NCBI GenBank assembly: GCA_027082875.1
Contig: JALWTK010000202.1
Coordinates: 1-33,855, forward strand
Origin: Sulfurimonas sp.
GTDB lineage: Bacteria > Campylobacterota > Campylobacteria > Campylobacterales > Sulfurimonadaceae
Length of the DNA stretch: 33,855 bases
Direction: 5' to 3'
How positions within the stretch are numbered: position 1 is the first letter of the stretch; every line of letters begins with the position of its first letter. Positions 8,084 through 25,529 of this stretch are shown here, piece by piece. Under the pieces are notes generated by a model. It had not been told where the DNA came from, made no database searches, and saw nothing but the letters and a program-made list of their open reading frames with translations. Position numbers and translations under genes: made by a program.

Positions 8084-8111
8084 TCTTTATCTAACTAAAA
8101 GATTGTACACA

Positions 8112-8942
8112 ATGACAGCTGATACCAAAATATTACAGATTATTTCAAATGAGACTAAAGATTCTATCAACCAGATGAATGTAGTTACACCTTCTGTATA
8201 TGCCTCTATATTTACAAATTTCTCTAAAGAACATGATGCAGAGATAGAAGATGATTCGGATCTTGCTAATGATATTCTTACACAAGAGTGTTCTACTTTA
8301 ACACAGATGCAAGAGTCAACTTCACAAAATGTCATGCACCTTAGTGAACACACAGAAAAAGCGATTACTGCTATTCAAGAAAAAGATGAAACGGCTCTTA
8401 GTGCTGTTTTAGAAGAGACTCAGAAGCTTAAAGCAGAACTAGAGAAGCTTAAAGAGGCAGTTTATCTAGATGAACTCACTCATATACACAACAGAAAATG
8501 GCTTAATGACCAAAAGTTAGAAAATGGTACAACACTCTTTAAAGAGGATGGTGTTTTAGCGATGATAGACCTCAACTACTTCAAGCTTATCAATGACACA
8601 CATGGACACCTTATAGGTGATAAAATTTTGATGTTTCTCTCTAATGAACTTAAAAAGACAGGCTTTGATGTGATACGTTTTGGTGGTGATGAGTTTATTG
8701 TTCTTTTTCCAAAAAATATCAGTGCCAAACATGCCTTTGAAACACTCAGCAAGCTACGAGAGACTATTCTTAAGAAAAAATTCAAATCAAAAACCACTCT
8801 TTTTAAAGTTAGTTTTTCTATTGGTGTGAGTGAGTATACTACAAAAGATGAACTCGCATCAGCAATAGAGCTCGCTGATAAACATATGTATGAAGATAAA
8901 CTCAGTATAAAAAAGAGAGTTACAGGTATAGATATAGAGTAA
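8112..8942 (+). CDS. Diguanylate cyclase (GGDEF domain), cytoplasmic
   Basis: DELTHIHNRKWLND ... IRFGGDEFIVLFPK intact signature. ATG at 8112 (MTADTKIL) preferred over TTG at 8103. Confidence 0.92.
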   Translation: MTADTKILQIISNETKDSINQMNVVTPSVYASIFTNFSKEHDAEIEDDSDLANDILTQECSTLTQMQESTSQNVMHLSEHTEKAITAIQEKDETALSAVLEETQKLKAELEKLKEAVYLDELTHIHNRKWLNDQKLENGTTLFKEDGVLAMIDLNYFKLINDTHGHLIGDKILMFLSNELKKTGFDVIRFGGDEFIVLFPKNISAKHAFETLSKLRETILKKKFKSKTTLFKVSFSIGVSEYTTKDELASAIELADKHMYEDKLSIKKRVTGIDIE

Positions 8943-11713: not shown

Positions 11714-12124
11714 ATGTTAAATGTTATGATAGTTGACGACTCTAAAATTATTACAAGAACACTTAGTAAAAACTTTGAAACTATGGGTTTTAATGTGGTT
11801 GGCATTGCGATGAATGGGCAAGATGCCATTGAAATGTTTAAGAAACTCAAACCTGATTTAGTAACTATGGATATTACTATGCCTGTTATGAATGGGATAG
11901 AAGCTCTTCAGCATATTCGTGAGTTTGATGAAAAAGCAAGGATTGTCATGGTTACTTCTCATGGAGAAGAGAAGCTTGTTATGGATGCCATTAGCTTTGG
12001 AGCAAAAGGCTATATACTCAAACCAATTACACCTCTCAAAATAAAACAAGCTATTCAAAAGACATTCCCGAAAATAGCTAATGAGATTGAAGAAAACTAC
12101 TTAAGCACTACACTAACATACTAG
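11714..12124 (+). CDS. CheY-like single-domain response regulator
   Basis: MIVDDSKI, LVTMDITMPVMNG, VMVTSHG, GYILKPI. The next gene's ATG immediately follows the stop. Confidence 0.94.
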   Translation: MLNVMIVDDSKIITRTLSKNFETMGFNVVGIAMNGQDAIEMFKKLKPDLVTMDITMPVMNGIEALQHIREFDEKARIVMVTSHGEEKLVMDAISFGAKGYILKPITPLKIKQAIQKTFPKIANEIEENYLSTTLTY

Positions 12125-14608
12125 ATGCATAAACTACTCAAACTTTTCCATACTACTTACCATCCAAAGTTGATAGATGCCATGATAAAGGCAAACTTTT
12201 CAGGTGCTATTCTTGTCAATATTTTTATTCCTATTATTATTTTTTATCTTTTTCACGAGAGTATTCCTCTTGGACAACTTGAGATTTGGTCAACTGCTCA
12301 GTTTCTAATATTTACACTCCGACTTGCCCTACAGAAAAAAATCAAGGACAATATCAATATCCAGTTTGTTCTTCTAAGCTTTACATCCTTTTTATATGCC
12401 ATTCTTTCATGGGAAGCACTTCTTTATGCAGATGATACACACCTCCTTTTAGTGGCTATGATTATTGCTTCTATTGTTGCGGGATCTATTGCAACTATTG
12501 TGAGTGTTTATCATATATTTTTTGCCTTTGTACTTATTCAAATGCTTGGTCTTATCTCAGCATTTCTGGCAAAAGGTGAAGATATATTTTTTCTTTCTGC
12601 TCTCTTAGCAAGCTCATTTTTGCACTTAGTTCTCAAAAATGGGTATAAGCAGTATCTAAATATGAAAGAGACATTAGCACTCAACAAGCAGGTCAAAAAT
12701 CTTTTAGACAATACCGGTGATGGCTTTTTATCTTTTGACAAACATCTAAAATGCCAAGATGGTTTTTCAAGTGAGTGTACACGTATTTTTGAGACTAAAG
12801 AGATAAAAGACAGAGATATAACAGAACTACTTTTCAAGGATGATTCCTATGAAAAAGAGATCTTTGTAGAAGCCATAGAGCGCTCCCTCAAAGCTGATAA
12901 TAGTTTTCAGATAGATATGTTTCTATCTCTTATACCTCAAGATATAAAGATACGAAACTTAGTCATCTCTTTAGAGTGTAAACGCCATAGTGATGCTTAC
13001 TTTATACTTATACTTCGAGATGTTACAGATAAAAAACGACTTGAATTTAAACTAGAGCATCAACATAAAGTACAGAGACTTCTTGTCAATGTAGCTTCTA
13101 ATAAAAATGATTTTATTGATTTAAAAAATGACTTTGAACAGCTCCTCAAAATACTCTACACTCCGAGCGACTCTTCTGCATCTAGTATCAGTAAAATTAA
13201 AAAAGAGCTTCATACTTTTAAAGGAAATTTTTCTCAAAAAGGGATGATATATATCTCTAAGTATATTCATGAGCTAGAACTTAAGGTCCAACATCTCTCT
13301 TCTGAGGAAGAGATTATTTCAACCTATCAAACATCTGATCTAAGAGAAATATTTGACAAAGATATTGCAGTGATAGATAGTGCACTTGGAGAGGAGTTTC
13401 TCAACTCCACAGAGTCTATCAGTGTTAACATTGAAGAGATTAGTGCTATTGAGTTTGAGCTAAAATCCTTTGTATATAAGTTTAATTTAGAACAGCAGAT
13501 AGCACTCAACACAATACTCAGTGATATTCATAAACTCAAAAATATTCCACTAAGAGAGATGCTCACTCCCTACATCACTTATGTTGAGCGGCTCTCTAAA
13601 AAGCTTGATAAAGAAGTTTTACCACTTGTTATCATAGGAGACGAGTCACTAAAAGTTTCACCACGACTCAAAAACTTCATGAAGCAACTTGTGCATGTTT
13701 TCAATAACTCTATTGACCATGGTATAGAAACTATAGAGGAGAGAGAAGAGAGTAAAAAAGATCCTTTTGCAAAAATAGTTTGTAAGTATCGCTTAAACTC
13801 TGAAATCTTAGTCTTAGAAATTAGCGATGATGGAAAAGGTATCAACACAAAAAATCTTGCATCTCAAGCTCAAGAGAGTGCTATGAAAAGCACTCAAGAG
13901 TTAAATACTATGAGTGAAGAAGAGTTATGTTCTCTTGTATTTCAAGAAAAACTTTCAACTAAAGGGAATGTTGACTTTATATCGGGGATCGGAATAGGCT
14001 TAGCCTCACTCTATAGTGAACTTAAAGAACTTCATGGAAATGTCTCTATTCAAAATCATCCAGGAGAGGGTGTAACATTTACTTTTTTTATTCCTCTACA
14101 TACAAGTAAAAATCAAAATCTCTTTTATGAAGGAGCCTCTTCTCAAAAATCTCAAACAATTTTGGCAACAATAATTACCCAATCAGAGCTCTTTATCAAA
14201 AAATCATTAGGCATAATAGTGAGTACAAATAGAACATTAGAAATCTCTGATACAAACCTTCATGTCGCACAGATTCAATTTTCTAAAGATTTTACTGGTA
14301 AAGTCATCCTTATATACTCTGGTAATATCCTCCAAGCATTTAGTGAATATATGCTTCCCGACGGTTTTGAGGAGGAAGAGAGAGAAGAAATTTATCAAGA
14401 TGTAGCAAAAGAGACTATAAACACCATTGTAGGTCTCTCGCTTCAGTACTTTGATAAGTCTATAGATGAAGTAGAGATTTCCCCTCCTCTTGAAAATTCA
14501 CCAGAGGAACTTTTACATATTATACAAACAAAAGAATTAAGATCTATCGCCACTATCGAAACATCACAGGGTACTTTAGGAATCATAGTTTTAAATGAAG
14601 ATGCTTAA
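12125..14608 (+). CDS. Membrane-anchored CheA-like histidine kinase with Hpt and C-terminal CheX/CheC-type phosphatase domain
   Basis: N-terminal multi-TM region; Hpt-like HTFKGNF (His codon 13211); CheA-like N-box VFNNSIDHGIETIEEREE; G1 ISDDGKGI; G2 ISGIGIGLASLYSELKELHGNVSIQNHPGEGVTFTFFIPL; C-terminal DVAKETINTIVG fits D-x3-E-x2-N. Confidence 0.88.
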   Translation: MHKLLKLFHTTYHPKLIDAMIKANFSGAILVNIFIPIIIFYLFHESIPLGQLEIWSTAQFLIFTLRLALQKKIKDNINIQFVLLSFTSFLYAILSWEALLYADDTHLLLVAMIIASIVAGSIATIVSVYHIFFAFVLIQMLGLISAFLAKGEDIFFLSALLASSFLHLVLKNGYKQYLNMKETLALNKQVKNLLDNTGDGFLSFDKHLKCQDGFSSECTRIFETKEIKDRDITELLFKDDSYEKEIFVEAIERSLKADNSFQIDMFLSLIPQDIKIRNLVISLECKRHSDAYFILILRDVTDKKRLEFKLEHQHKVQRLLVNVASNKNDFIDLKNDFEQLLKILYTPSDSSASSISKIKKELHTFKGNFSQKGMIYISKYIHELELKVQHLSSEEEIISTYQTSDLREIFDKDIAVIDSALGEEFLNSTESISVNIEEISAIEFELKSFVYKFNLEQQIALNTILSDIHKLKNIPLREMLTPYITYVERLSKKLDKEVLPLVIIGDESLKVSPRLKNFMKQLVHVFNNSIDHGIETIEEREESKKDPFAKIVCKYRLNSEILVLEISDDGKGINTKNLASQAQESAMKSTQELNTMSEEELCSLVFQEKLSTKGNVDFISGIGIGLASLYSELKELHGNVSIQNHPGEGVTFTFFIPLHTSKNQNLFYEGASSQKSQTILATIITQSELFIKKSLGIIVSTNRTLEISDTNLHVAQIQFSKDFTGKVILIYSGNILQAFSEYMLPDGFEEEEREEIYQDVAKETINTIVGLSLQYFDKSIDEVEISPPLENSPEELLHIIQTKELRSIATIETSQGTLGIIVLNEDA

Positions 14609-16216: not shown

Positions 16217-18904
16217 ATGAACTACAAGTCCCTGCAAGCAAAAATAATAATCATTTTTTCTATTCCTATGCTTGCACTGATCTACTTTTCATACTCCTTC
16301 GCCGTTTCAAAGTACCAACAACTTGAGCTAAGTAAAGCACATGTTCTCTCTGCAAATGCAACAAACACCCTCACAGACCTCATTCATAACCTACAATCAG
16401 AACGCGGTCTAAGTGCTGGATACTTAGTCTCACAAAACCTTATACTCAAAAAGAAACTTCAAACTCAATACATCAGGAGTGATCTCTCTTATGAAAACTA
16501 TCTAAAATACTGCCAAAAGAGTCAAACTCAGCAGGAACTACTCCAAAAGTTTTTACCATTCAATCCTCAAAAAAAGCAAAAGCATATTAGTGCACATTTT
16601 AAAAAAATACAAGAGATTAGAGAAAAAGTCTTAAATCAGAAATTAAATTTACACACGGAGCTAGAGTATTACTCTCTTATCAACAAAGAGCTTATGCAGA
16701 ATATTGACCTCTATGTCAGCCTTCTCAATGGTAATCAATATATAAATAACTCCTTCTCTCAGCTACAAAACCTCCAAGAGATAGCAGGTCTGCAAAGAGC
16801 ATATATTTTTAGCAATATTCTTAAACAGAACTTCTCCAAAAGTACCCTACTAAATGTTCAAGAGCTAGAAACAAAACTTAACCTTACAAAAGAGAACTTT
16901 CAGCTTCTAGCACCAAGTAAAGCAAAAGTAATTTACAACTCCATACTCCAGCAAGAGACAAGAGATAAACTAGAAGATATGAAAAGCAAATTTTTTCAAT
17001 CAGAACTTCAAAAAGAGAAAGCACAGATATGGTTTACACTAAGTTCTTTGTATATAGACCAGTTACATCACATCTCTCAGCTCATCCTAAAAAACTCTAT
17101 TATTACTGCTACAAATAGTGAAGAAGATGCAAAAAAGATACTCTATCTCAGTGCTGCATCATGGATTTTTTCTATTCTAGCTTACCTTTTTTTTCTATAT
17201 ATCATAAATAAACTACTCAACAAGGAGAAAAAACTCCTTGAGAAACTTCGTATATCTTCTTATATTTTTGACTCACACGAAGCGATGGTTCTTACCTCGC
17301 CCAAGGGTCTTATTATCCAAGTGAATGGTGCTTTTACTAGTATCACTGGTTACTCAGAAGAAGAGGCTATTGGAAAGAGTGTAAACCTTTTAAAGTCATT
17401 TAAACACTCCGAAGATTTTTATAAAAATATGTGGAAAAGACTAAAAGAAGAGGGAAAATGGAGTGATGAGATCTACAATAAACGCAAAAATGGAGAGATC
17501 TATTTAGAGAGACTCTCTATTACTGCCATTAAAGATGATCAAGGTACTCTTATAAACTATATTGCCCATTTTTTAGATATCAGTGATCTTAAAAAAGCTC
17601 AAGAGAGAGCAGAGCATCAAGCTGACCATGATTTTTTAACTGGTCTTTTTAATAGAAAAGCACTTATGAAAAGACTCCACGAAGAGTCTGCAAAAGCACA
17701 ACGCCATAAGTTTACCCATGCCTTTCTTTTTATGGATCTTGACCACTTTAAAGCAGTCAATGATACTTACGGACATGCAATGGGTGACAAACTCTTACTA
17801 GAAGTCACAAACAGAGTCCAGTCTTTACTTCGAGAAGAGGATATTTTTTCTCGTATTAGTGGCGATGAGTTTACTATTATCATGCTCAATCTTGATAATA
17901 AACGACCAACTGCAGCACTACAGGTAAAAGAGAAATGTAACACAATCATCGAAAATCTTTCTAAAGAGTTTTTTATAGATGAAAATAGTATCAATATTAG
18001 TGCGAGTATAGGGATCAAGATATTTCCAAACAAAGAAGAGTCTATAGAAGATGTTATATCTCATGCAGATACAGCTATGTATCAAGCCAAAGCGAATGGT
18101 AAAAATAGATATACCTTTTTTGATAAAAATATTGAAGTAAAACTCAAAGAACTTGCTCGTTTAGAAGAGGAGTTACTCAAAGCGATACAAAATAAAGAGT
18201 TCACATTTTATTTACAGCCAAAAATAGATATTCAAACAAATACAATTTGTGGTGCAGAAGCACTTGTGAGATGGCAACACCCCTCACGTGGTCTACTCTT
18301 CCCTAATGACTTTTTAGAAGTAGCTTCAAAAATGGGACTTATCCCATCTTTGACAAAGCTAGCACTCCAAAGTGTCTGCCAATTTTTACATAACTATAAG
18401 GATTGGCAGGGTATTGTCTCAATAAATATCAATGCAACTGAGCTCCTAAACCCTGAGTTTGAAGCATCTGTCTTAGGTATTATTAACTCCTACAGTATCA
18501 ACCCAGAACACATAGAGCTTGAAATACTTGAAGATGATCTTATTGAAGATATTGATAAAGCTATAGAGAAGATTAGCTCACTTCGCCAACACGGTATCAA
18601 ACTCTCTATTGATGACTTTGGAACGGGATATTCATCTATTACCTATCTCAAACGATTGCCAGTAAACCACCTCAAAATTGATCGTAGTTTTACTCAAAAT
18701 CTTCATGATGCTTCAAATAAAAAACTTATGAAGATGATGATAAATATGGCTAAAGCCTTTAATCTCAAAACAGTTGTTGAAGGTGTTGAAGATGCTGAGC
18801 AACTTGAGTATATCAATAGATGTGGGGCAGATATCTACCAAGGATTTTACTGCTCCCCTGCAGTGGAGAAGGAGAAGTTTATAGAGATACTAAATAGGGC
18901 TTAG
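16217..18904 (+). CDS. NIT-PAS-GGDEF-EAL protein (c-di-GMP metabolism)
   Basis: Two TM segments flank a NIT-like sensor (NLQSERGLSAGYL; LQNLQEIAGLQRAYIFSNIL). PAS (GLIIQVNGAFTSITGYSEEEAIGKS), diverged GGDEF signature ISGDEF, EAL (GAEALVRWQHP, DDFGTGYSSITYLKRLPVNHLKIDRSF). Confidence 0.93.
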   Translation: MNYKSLQAKIIIIFSIPMLALIYFSYSFAVSKYQQLELSKAHVLSANATNTLTDLIHNLQSERGLSAGYLVSQNLILKKKLQTQYIRSDLSYENYLKYCQKSQTQQELLQKFLPFNPQKKQKHISAHFKKIQEIREKVLNQKLNLHTELEYYSLINKELMQNIDLYVSLLNGNQYINNSFSQLQNLQEIAGLQRAYIFSNILKQNFSKSTLLNVQELETKLNLTKENFQLLAPSKAKVIYNSILQQETRDKLEDMKSKFFQSELQKEKAQIWFTLSSLYIDQLHHISQLILKNSIITATNSEEDAKKILYLSAASWIFSILAYLFFLYIINKLLNKEKKLLEKLRISSYIFDSHEAMVLTSPKGLIIQVNGAFTSITGYSEEEAIGKSVNLLKSFKHSEDFYKNMWKRLKEEGKWSDEIYNKRKNGEIYLERLSITAIKDDQGTLINYIAHFLDISDLKKAQERAEHQADHDFLTGLFNRKALMKRLHEESAKAQRHKFTHAFLFMDLDHFKAVNDTYGHAMGDKLLLEVTNRVQSLLREEDIFSRISGDEFTIIMLNLDNKRPTAALQVKEKCNTIIENLSKEFFIDENSINISASIGIKIFPNKEESIEDVISHADTAMYQAKANGKNRYTFFDKNIEVKLKELARLEEELLKAIQNKEFTFYLQPKIDIQTNTICGAEALVRWQHPSRGLLFPNDFLEVASKMGLIPSLTKLALQSVCQFLHNYKDWQGIVSININATELLNPEFEASVLGIINSYSINPEHIELEILEDDLIEDIDKAIEKISSLRQHGIKLSIDDFGTGYSSITYLKRLPVNHLKIDRSFTQNLHDASNKKLMKMMINMAKAFNLKTVVEGVEDAEQLEYINRCGADIYQGFYCSPAVEKEKFIEILNRA

Positions 18905-20093
18905 GCTCACTAAAGTAGTAGCCCTGAGAGTAGTCTATTCCAAGAGCTTTGACTCTATTTTGCACCTCTTCGTTATGTATAAACTCTGCAATAATTTTAA
19001 TACCACTGCGTCTGCAGATCATAATAATCGCATCGACAATTACCTGACTCTTTTCATCATCTATGATATTTTTTATAAATGCACCATCTATTTTTACATA
19101 GTCTGGATGAACTTCTAATAGGCGTGACATATTAGAGTTTTGTGCACCAAAATCATCTATAGCTATTTTAAAGCCCTTCTCTCGCAAAGAGTTTATCTGA
19201 TTGAGTATCACTGCTTTTTCAAGGCTCTCTATCTCCTCTAAAATTTCTAATACAACACGAGAGGGGTCTATATTATATTTGCTAACATTTTTAAGAAGAT
19301 ACTCTTCTAAATAATCTTCTATAAGGTCTTCAGCAGTAATATTAAGAGAAAATTCATACTCATTGTCACTAAATATTTTAAAACTTTGGGAGATAAGTGC
19401 CTTTGTAACATGGGAAAGATTTCCTGTCATTTTTGCAGCATTCATAAAAAAGTATGGAGAGATAATAGTCTCTTCATCTCGTAGGCGTGCTAAACACTCA
19501 TACTTCTCTATCTTCTGTGTATGGTTATTGACTATTGGCTGAAAGTAGGCGATGATATCTTCATTAGATACAGCATCTTTTATTTTTGTTATCCAGTAGA
19601 TATTTTCTTGCTCTTTTTGGATGTACTCTGAGTTTGCATCAAAAATTTTATAATTGTTTTTTTTACAGACTCGCAGTTCATTTATAGCAAGTTCTGAATG
19701 AGAGAGATTTATAAGACCAGAACCATGTGAAATGCCAATGCTCAAAGAGATTTTTAGTTCAATGTCATTTTCTAGAGTAATCTCTGTATGCGAGAAAAAA
19801 GAGAGTATAGACTCTGCTACTTCAGCAATACTAACAAGGTTATAGTGAGTGTAGTCCAATAAGACAAACTTATCAGAGTAAAAATGATAGAGTCTAGAAC
19901 TAGGAGGTTTTATATGGTTTACATACTCAACAAATATTTTTAAAAGCTCATTACCAGCTTCATAGCCATAACCGTAATTCACATTTGAAAAGTTATCAAT
20001 ATTGAGTACAAAACAGGTGACAGGCTGGTTTTTTTTCAGCTCTTCTTCTAAATCTTGGTTAGTGCCTATATCCATATCTTTATATATAGTCAT
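18879..20093 (-). CDS. EAL-domain phosphodiesterase with degenerate GGDEF domain
   Basis: GGDEF position reads YSDKF. EAL features kept: YECLARLRD, FSLNIT, VVLEILEE, IAIDDFGAQNSNM, DYVKIDGAFIK, IIAEFIHNEE, YSQGYYFSEP. Confidence 0.9.
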   Translation of the reverse strand: MTIYKDMDIGTNQDLEEELKKNQPVTCFVLNIDNFSNVNYGYGYEAGNELLKIFVEYVNHIKPPSSRLYHFYSDKFVLLDYTHYNLVSIAEVAESILSFFSHTEITLENDIELKISLSIGISHGSGLINLSHSELAINELRVCKKNNYKIFDANSEYIQKEQENIYWITKIKDAVSNEDIIAYFQPIVNNHTQKIEKYECLARLRDEETIISPYFFMNAAKMTGNLSHVTKALISQSFKIFSDNEYEFSLNITAEDLIEDYLEEYLLKNVSKYNIDPSRVVLEILEEIESLEKAVILNQINSLREKGFKIAIDDFGAQNSNMSRLLEVHPDYVKIDGAFIKNIIDDEKSQVIVDAIIMICRRSGIKIIAEFIHNEEVQNRVKALGIDYSQGYYFSEPKPYLVSL

Positions 20094-22487: not shown

Positions 22488-25400
22488 TTACCAATCATCA
22501 AGAACGAAACCTTTTGGCTCTTCCTCGACCTCTTTTATCTCTATATCTTCATTTATCTCAGGCTCTTGCACTTTTGTGACCTCAGGTCTGCTCATCTGCT
22601 CTTCAAACTTCAACTCGAGACCCTTACTTGTCATCACAAAGCCATTGACTTGAAGTTTTCCCTCATGTATGAGCTTGTGATGCTCTTTACACAAAGGTAT
22701 AAGGTTGTGCTTATTGTCTTTATGAAAATGCCCGATAAATCCAGCTTCATCTGCTAAACTACGTTGAGAGATATGATGCACATCCTCAGCAATAGCACCA
22801 CAGATGATACACTTCGTAACATAAAGCTCTTTGTTATACTTACTCGTTTTTTTCTTCACTAAAAGTTCTAACTCATCAAAGTCATTTGATAAACGCTTAC
22901 GGATGGCATTTGCCTCTTCTAAAAACTCACTATCCATGTGTAGAGACTTTGCAAACTCAAGTCCATAGATACTACTACCACTTCCAGCTTGAAGTACACG
23001 GTTAAAGACTAAGGTATCTTTTTCTTCATCATACTCTACACTAAGATGTAGGTCTACGACATTATCAAGTGTAGTTATCTCTTGCATCGTTGAGAGCTGG
23101 TGCAAGTGTGTCGCAAAGAGGAAAAGACAACGAGTATTTGCAAGTTTTTTGATAGCTGATGCAACTATAGCAACACCTGAGAGTGTCTCTGTTCCATGGC
23201 TTATCTCATCCCCTAAAACTAGAGAACGAGTAGTTGCACGGTTAAAGATGTTTTTGAGTTCAAGCATCTCTACAGCAAAAGTAGAGAGCCCTTTTGCAAG
23301 GTTGTCTTTAGAGACTATGCGAGTAAAAAGCGAATCAAAAATACTAAACTTCATCACAGCAGCACTCACAAAAAATCCAGACTGTGCCATAAGAGTAGCA
23401 ATCCCTATACTCTTCATAAGAGAGGATTTTCCACTTGAGTTTATCCCATAAAGAAGCACACCGTTGATATCATGTCCATCATGAACACCCACTTCAAGCA
23501 TAACTGTTTCAGGATGAGGCAAGTCCATATACTCACGATTTCCCATCACTATGTCATTTGGTACATAGAGTCCACCTCTCTCTTGTACCTCTATGAGAGG
23601 GTGTCGAAGTTGCATGATCTGCATAAAGTTCTCATTCTCTTTCACCTCAACGATTGTAGGGCGAGAGTGCTTGTATGTTTGAGCTACTTTTGAGGAGCTT
23701 ACCCCTACATCAAGATCAGAGACATAGGCTATAACTCTGTCAAAAAGAAGGGAGTATCTGCGTTCATAAAGTGTTTGAAGGTTTATGTACTTCTCTTTAA
23801 CAAGAGTCACTATCTTTCGACGGTTTTTCATGATCTTATCTGAGAGTTCATCAGTAAATGTAGAGGTAATTTTCACAGAGTTTGTCAATTTTTTGACATT
23901 GTAACTAAGAAAAAACTCCTCTTGTTTAAACGCACTCTCTATGAGAGAGTAGCGGTTTTTTGAAAGAGAGATATAGTAACCCTCTTTCTCTAAAAGTCCA
24001 AGTGTAACAAGTCGGTTAGAGCTTCCGGCGTTTACAGACTCTAGTAAACCTTCTATTCGTTTCATGATGTCCTTAAATGCCACCAACATCACACTATTTT
24101 CTTTGACAAGTGTATCTATAGATTCATCTACACCACTCATCAAAAAGTTCTCATCTACTGTGTTGTTTGTAAAACGACGAGAGACATCAAGATCTATGCT
24201 TTTGCTTATATCACGAAGAAACTCTTCAACTTCACTCTCATGAAAAGGTGTCTTTTGGATTTTGTGTTTTTTGACATAGAGCATTAACTCTTTAACTGCG
24301 AGCATTGAGTCATAAACATGATTCATCTCAAAAGGATGAAGTCGACCTAAGTTAAGTCGGCGTGAGAGTCGCTCTAAGTCATAAACACCACGCATCATCT
24401 CATCGAGATAACGAACATGCGAAGAGACTCGCTCTATAAGGTTATAACGGCGATTAAGCTCCACCTCTTCCATAATAGGGTTAAGCAGACGCTCTTTAAG
24501 CAGACGCCGACCGATGGCAGTAGCACTACGGTCTAACATCTTAAGGAGTGTAAACTCTCTTCTATCTTTAGAGATGATGCCCATCTGCTCTAAGGCATTG
24601 TTTCCAAGGTACATAAAACGGCGATTATCTATCAAACGCGGCATAGACATCTTCTGTACTATGTGGTAGTCATGCTCGATGACAAAGTGAATAAGTATCG
24701 CGAGCGATTCTGTTATCATAGGAGAGCGTTCTAAGTCAAGATGCTCTATAGGCGAGAGCAAAGACTGTATCTGATAGACCTCCCCAAAGAGTCTGTTTTG
24801 AAACTCTATCCTTGGTCTTTGGTTATTCACTGCATAGTGGTAGTGTTCTGGTATCTCTAAGTACTGCATCACATGGCGTTGGTCATCTATGCCATCTAAG
24901 AAAGTAACAACTATCTCACTTGTTCTATAGACATTCAGGAGATTAAAAACCTCATCAAGGGCATAAGAGGGGTCTTCACTTGTGGAGTGTGTCTCATACA
25001 TCCAAGTCTTTCCAGTGGTGACATCTATGGCAGAGTAACCCACACTATAAATCCCACGGTACTTATCTATGGCAAGAGAGACTATATAGTTATCATCATT
25101 ATCTACAATATGCTCAAAGTTTGTTCCAGGGGAGACAATTTGAGCTATATAACGGCTTATTTTTGGAGGATTACCCTTTTGTTTCACAACTATAACCGTG
25201 TACTTCTGCTCTTGTATAAGTCTGTTTAGATAGCGTTCAAAGGAGACAGCAGGAACACCTGCTAAAAGTGGGTTTCTATCAGAATTTTCTATGATATTTT
25301 TGTTTTTCTTTGTAAGCTGGATGTTGAGGAGTTCGGCTATCTCTTTAGCCTTCCCTATCTGCTCCTCATCGTTGTTGACCTCATAGACCTCATAAAAAGT

Positions 25401-25529
25401 ACCTATCTCCATAAAGACAACAGTATCGCTTCCATACTTCTCTTCAAAGTGGCGTTGTAGATCAAAATAGGTCTGGGTGAGCAGTCGCTCTTTGTTATTG
25501 AGCATATTGCTTACATCGGAGATTTTCAT
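22488..25529 (-). CDS. MutS family protein with C-terminal HNH endonuclease domain (MutS7 / mtMutS-type architecture)
   Basis: Domain I mismatch motif [10 protein letters not shown]; Walker A-like [40 protein letters not shown]-terminal HNH/zinc pattern CIICG...EDVHHISQ...[19 protein letters not shown]. Confidence 0.93.
22665..22817 (-). other. HNH nuclease domain within the MutS protein
   Basis: CxxC (CIIC), HH (VHHI), N (HNLIPL), CxxHH (CKEHH) in HNH order, downstream of the ATPase domain. Confidence 0.88.

Follow-up and report, generated by a model that had tools for sequence, protein, structure and literature searches.

Organisation of the kinase-CheX locus

The window examined here is a 33,855-nucleotide stretch of DNA from a Sulfurimonas sp. 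On its forward strand, an ORF with an ATG start (12125..14608) encodes a putative kinase-CheX protein of 827 aa, with orthologues at 66, 63, 55 and 39-45% identity. Ahead of it on the same strand is the gene of a single-domain CheY-like response regulator of 136 aa (11714..12124; Pfam Response_reg, 106 bits), the presumed substrate. This receiver possesses the usual phosphorylation set (D8/D9, D53, T81 and K103) and its gene also neighbours that of the kinase in orthologues. Its gene stops one base ahead of the kinase ATG; an earlier note on this DNA had placed a CheY-like gene directly upstream with zero spacing, and this is what was found.

The full-length protein was modelled using AlphaFold (827 aa, 35-row alignment; mean pLDDT 79), with the relative placement of its domains being uncertain because the pTM of this model is low (0.39). 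In this model, about six membrane helices extending up to residue 196 are followed by a PAS-like alpha/beta domain (197-300), a bundle (327-421), a hairpin (436-470), a P4 domain (474-658) and a CheX fold (673-827), all features being encoded on the forward strand. The N-terminal membrane segment (residues 14-196; 12125..12712) was predicted from its hydrophobic sequence and the ~6 model helices, the pLDDT of which is mostly 56-87. The PAS-like linker domain (residues 186-310; 12680..13054), recognised by alignment and model, carries conserved DNxGxGFLSF and SxEC motifs, and no Pfam match was obtained for it in the kinase family. Cys218 is invariant in this domain of the window protein and its relatives, and all members examined share an S..C pair without exception.

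An Hpt five-helix bundle (residues 327-421; 13103..13387) possesses the phosphorylatable His363 within HTFKGNF. The Pfam match to Hpt (336-399) is sub-threshold (16 bits, cutoff 24.6), and the assignment was made despite this because H363 and G367 are invariant and a helix bundle is predicted. A P3-like helical hairpin (436-470), consisting of two model helices with no match to Pfam H-kinase_dim, and a CheA-type P4 ATPase (474-658) follow at 13430..14098. Pfam analysis identified HATPase_c at 521-659 (44.9 bits), phmmer aligned residues 465-658 with P3P4 of Thermotoga maritima CheA (E 3e-23) and in Foldseek the kinase core matched P3P4 and P4 of T. maritima CheA. Matches to the CheA models of NCBIfam are confined to about 470-668. 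The P4 boxes within this region (N box, N528/D531/H532; G1, D568/G570/G572; G2, G621/G623/G625) are, like H363, invariant in an alignment of 35 kinases from many taxa. No HisKA-family match was found in the protein at E<=10 (Pfam), the His being located in the Hpt domain.

The C-terminal CheX domain

Residues 673-827 (14141..14605) are predicted to form a CheX domain, which occupies the place of the CheW-like P5 in CheA. Pfam CheX (PF13690) was matched at 715-789 with 34.0 bits (cutoff 27, E 3e-8). The last 159 residues gave no match when used as a single-sequence query of the PDB, a profile of 61 relatives being needed; this profile matched the CheX entries 3hzh, 1squ and 1xko at 5e-12 to 4e-10, the match at 5e-12 being Borrelia CheX of the CheX-CheY-BeF3 complex (3hzh), with the Glu and Asn aligned. 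When the domain was modelled alone by AlphaFold from the 61-row alignment, a pLDDT of 92.6 was obtained and the top PDB matches by Foldseek were CheX of Thermotoga and Desulfovibrio (E 6e-9), with CheC, FliY and FliM ranking after these. A fold comparison of this region had been proposed in the earlier note, which had also pointed to the signature of a CheY phosphatase (D/S-x3-E-x2-N with a downstream Pro) in it. The signature is present: DVAKETIN is encoded at 14399..14422 as D759-x3-E763-x2-N766, and P787 and P788 lie 21-22 residues past the Asn.

All of the 61 CheX domains compared, which share 12-69% identity with that of the window, retain the Asn, one Gly and one Pro (61/61). The acid of the motif is Glu in 53 of these and Asp in eight, all eight being stand-alone CheX proteins, and both Glu and Asn are kept in 30/30 fused domains examined. 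The CheX parts of the relatives L008 and L009 differ with a dN of 0.07 and a dS of 0.54, and this part is under purifying selection between them. Chance occurrence of the motif was ruled out by the profile match at 5e-12 and the fold match at 6e-9, and decay of the domain by the low dN relative to dS together with the invariant motif.

The domain could instead have little phosphatase activity and mainly provide the receiver with a site for docking or an element for dimerisation, replacing the P2 or P5 that the chain lacks. CheX folds dimerise, the CheX fold binds CheY in the 3hzh complex and Pfam identified no P2 domain in the chain, all of which would suit such a role; pure docking would not, however, need the catalytic Glu and Asn that every fused domain examined has kept, and this explanation is regarded as unlikely. 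A catalytically competent CheX-type phosphatase is the preferred reading of the domain.

Absence of the CheW-like P5 domain

The earlier note had seen no CheW-like P5 in the chain. This was borne out, as no CheW match was obtained in the kinase-CheX protein even at E<=10 (Pfam), and a CheW scan of the source genome located P5 in its two true CheA-like kinases (C82 and C110) but not in this protein. An array kinase was ruled out by the absent P5, with these two proteins as the same-genome positive control. Since both CheX and the CheA-type core are components of chemotaxis, the system might be thought a branch of the flagellar array feeding the motor CheY. Against this, the protein has no P5/CheW for joining an array and has membrane and PAS-like segments of its own, the genome has separate CheA genes (C82 and C110), and receivers at other loci are fused to GGDEF or DUF2225; a link to the motor is thus highly improbable, and a kinase acting outside the array is favoured.

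Distribution of fused and separate CheX

Eighty named loci were retrieved from the 84,980 species genomes scanned, and the merged set contained 101 non-redundant kinases. Kinase-CheX fusions, for which the earlier note had proposed a survey of domain architectures, were found among them: CheX is fused to the kinase in 39 and encoded by a separate gene just downstream in 41, while five loci are cut by a contig end and 16 have no CheX gene directly after the kinase, a class that is overcounted because it consists partly of operons with two kinases in tandem, where CheX follows the second (L082 and L083). The maximum-likelihood tree of the kinase core from all 101 requires at least seven changes between the fused and separate states, the exact number being soft because a quick tree search with SH-aLRT support only was used.

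Family members span several phyla, with isolates and MAGs both represented. Fused copies occur in isolates of Chromobacterium, Paenibacillus and Syntrophomonas, and separate copies in isolates of Clostridium chromiireducens, Sulfurospirillum arcachonense and Desulfurivibrio. The kinase is patchy, with a clear relative (E<=1e-32) in 13/347 genomes of the window's phylum; a close fused orthologue was present in only four of the genomes examined from the window's genus (G000, G095, G140 and G142), and the closest named orthologues are from Sulfurimonas MAGs. Separate-gene relatives have the gene order kinase-CheX-receiver, and in the taxonomic family of the window most kinase relatives end with P4, the next gene being that of a CheX of roughly 155-177 aa and the one behind it that of the receiver. 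An assembly artefact was ruled out, with L057, L058 and L060 carrying the same fusion and L058 and L060 also the same flanking genes.

Campylobacterota-clade members were also identified in records titled Bacteroidales (L117), Gammaproteobacteria (L123/L135) or Helicobacter pylori (L093). These titles are probably binning or naming errors, and the phylum labels of L117 and L123/L135 were left unused because the sequences were placed inside Campylobacterota clades on the tree.

The probable partner receiver

A receiver gene is adjacent in 32/39 fused loci (the window included) and 38/41 separate-gene loci, and was not seen nearby in 7/39 fused loci. The gaps between kinase and receiver at fused loci are mostly <50 bases, or the genes overlap, and MDITMP and TSHG motifs are common to most partner receivers. 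For the window kinase and its nearest orthologues (L057, L058 and L060; 55-66% identity) the receiver lies upstream, and in a sister lineage (L008-L010 and L059) it lies downstream, the pairing remaining constant among these loci while neighbour genes vary; a SulP permease gene is shared at L058 and L060. A common substrate of the kinase and CheX is supported by the occurrence of a kinase-CheX-receiver operon in different phyla, of which the fusion represents one form.

The CheX domain may alternatively act on another receiver, so that the partner is phosphorylated while the signal of a second pathway is erased. The source genome does encode further receivers and CheX/CheC-like proteins, and there are loci with two receivers or with an additional CheX (L038 and L079), but the tight three-gene operon of relatives usually holds one receiver, and action on a different receiver is considered quite improbable. 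The adjacent receiver is retained here as the probable target of both domains.

Inputs, outputs and neighbouring genes

The N-terminal parts of the family are freely variable, and include receiver-PAS (L037), 7TM-PAS (L088) and HAMP with a weak Cache (L091). A Desulfosporosinus kinase-CheX (L071:3534-6983) possesses an iron-only hydrogenase domain with ferredoxin-type 4Fe-4S clusters, its probable sensor, and adjoins a receiver-DUF2225 protein. A Calditrichales protein of 2157 aa (L136:471-6941) combines Ser/Thr kinase, AAA, GAF, CheA-type kinase and CheX in a single chain.

Partner receivers are fused to GGDEF (L099) or DUF2225 (L071). GGDEF genes occur in the flanks of 18/37 well-covered loci, nearly all on the same strand, a raw count that gives only a lead; control of c-di-GMP as the output of the receiver, from these neighbours and the one receiver-GGDEF fusion, is a guess. 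Three GGDEF or GGDEF/EAL-like genes surround the kinase in the window (8103-8942, 16217-18904 and 18879-20093), with counterparts of two neighbouring the kinase of L058 and of two that of L060. Also in the window, 22488-25529 encodes a MutS-like protein that ends in an HNH-like stretch at its C-terminal side (CIICG...HHI...H) and may resemble MutS7-type proteins.

Elsewhere in the source genome, a 464-aa protein (L001:433-1824; G000 contig C179) consists of an N-terminal STAS domain, a middle without a Pfam match and a C-terminal CheX (49 bits). On contig C5 of G000 (L003:1339-2287), the gene of a 197-aa CheX/CheC-like protein is flanked by that of a receiver and that of a PAS-type histidine kinase, a putative second kinase-phosphatase-receiver operon on an ordinary-looking kinase.

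Proposed mechanism

The membrane domain, Hpt, CheA-like kinase and CheX-type domain described in the earlier note as a single chain were all recovered. Its proposal of a bifunctional enzyme outside canonical chemotaxis is supported because the predicted CheX fold has an intact Glu/Asn pair, the Hpt His and ATPase boxes are intact, P5/CheW is absent and the receiver gene remains adjacent in relatives even where it has changed from a 5' to a 3' position; both activities are predicted from sequence and models. On its architecture and evolution, that is, the directly observed content and order of its domains, intact catalytic residues, conserved receiver linkage, repeated fusion and separation, and purifying selection, the protein is likely to be a one-piece sensor kinase/phosphatase for the adjacent receiver that works outside a CheW array. 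The docking-only, other-receiver and motor-linked readings are less likely than this one.

We infer that the chain has both kinase and phosphatase activity, with the receiver as the substrate of both, under the control of a signal. This signal would be received at the membrane segment and relayed through the PAS-like domain to the CheA-type core, where the P4 ATPase would phosphorylate His363 of the Hpt domain of its own chain, in cis or across a dimer. From His363 the phosphoryl group would then pass to the adjacent CheY-like receiver, at Asp53. The CheX domain, like stand-alone CheX, would put Glu763/Asn766 into the active site of the receiver and hydrolyse the phosphoryl group. The phosphorylation level of the receiver would thereby be set by the balance of kinase and phosphatase, with no involvement of receptor arrays, of CheW or of a phosphatase encoded elsewhere.

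More tentatively, the family may form a class of chemosensory-type receptors that spans several phyla and works without arrays. Its Hpt/CheA-type kinase would be driven by a sensor that varies between members, and with CheX standing where P5 would be, one chain would both write and erase the signal. The input (membrane segment, PAS, Fe-hydrogenase-like, receiver, 7TM or Ser/Thr-kinase-AAA-GAF modules) would set the kinase:phosphatase ratio, and the output would often be c-di-GMP enzymes rather than flagella.

Comparison with known systems

Classical chemotaxis has its kinase and its CheY phosphatase on two different proteins, whereas here they have been joined repeatedly and the array-coupling P5 is missing. 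This points to a use of chemotaxis-type catalysis for ordinary two-component sensing in several phyla, and the natural fused and separate versions allow a comparison of whether joining alters signal gain, speed or insulation. Bifunctional HisKA kinases such as HK853 also phosphorylate and dephosphorylate their receiver with one protein, using the same DHp helix pair for both, whereas the window protein would use two separate domains of different origin. With CheA (P1-P3-P4-P5) the protein shares the Hpt domain and CheA-type P4, but it is without P5 and has its own sensor, with CheX at the P5 position. Its CheX domain has the fold and E-x2-N motif of CheX of T. maritima (1xko/1squ) and B. burgdorferi (3hzh); those are stand-alone chemotaxis proteins, whereas that of the window is fused behind a kinase.

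Stand-alone CheX in Campylobacterota chemotaxis has been described for the F3 class, next to fliNO (PMC9321776). Fusions of CheA with CheC/CheX have been reported in Leptospirae, where they are F1-class CheA, and a dual activity has been proposed for them (Berry, Andrianova and Zhulin 2023, PMC10782961). That survey defines CheA by a core of P1, P3, P4 and P5, of which the Hpt His and P4 were found in the kinase-CheX protein and P5 was not; the family therefore lies outside the CheA of that survey. Neither a name nor a description of it was found in Pfam, NCBIfam or the literature searched, most subscription papers lying outside that search. Both the Leptospirae proteins and the window protein combine a CheA-type kinase and a CheC/CheX-type phosphatase in one chain, but the former possess P5 by the survey definition, whereas the latter has none and carries a membrane segment and a PAS-like domain. 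The fusion and the idea of dual activity are thus already known from Leptospirae, and what is novel relative to these is a P5-less kinase-CheX-receiver family with its own sensor.
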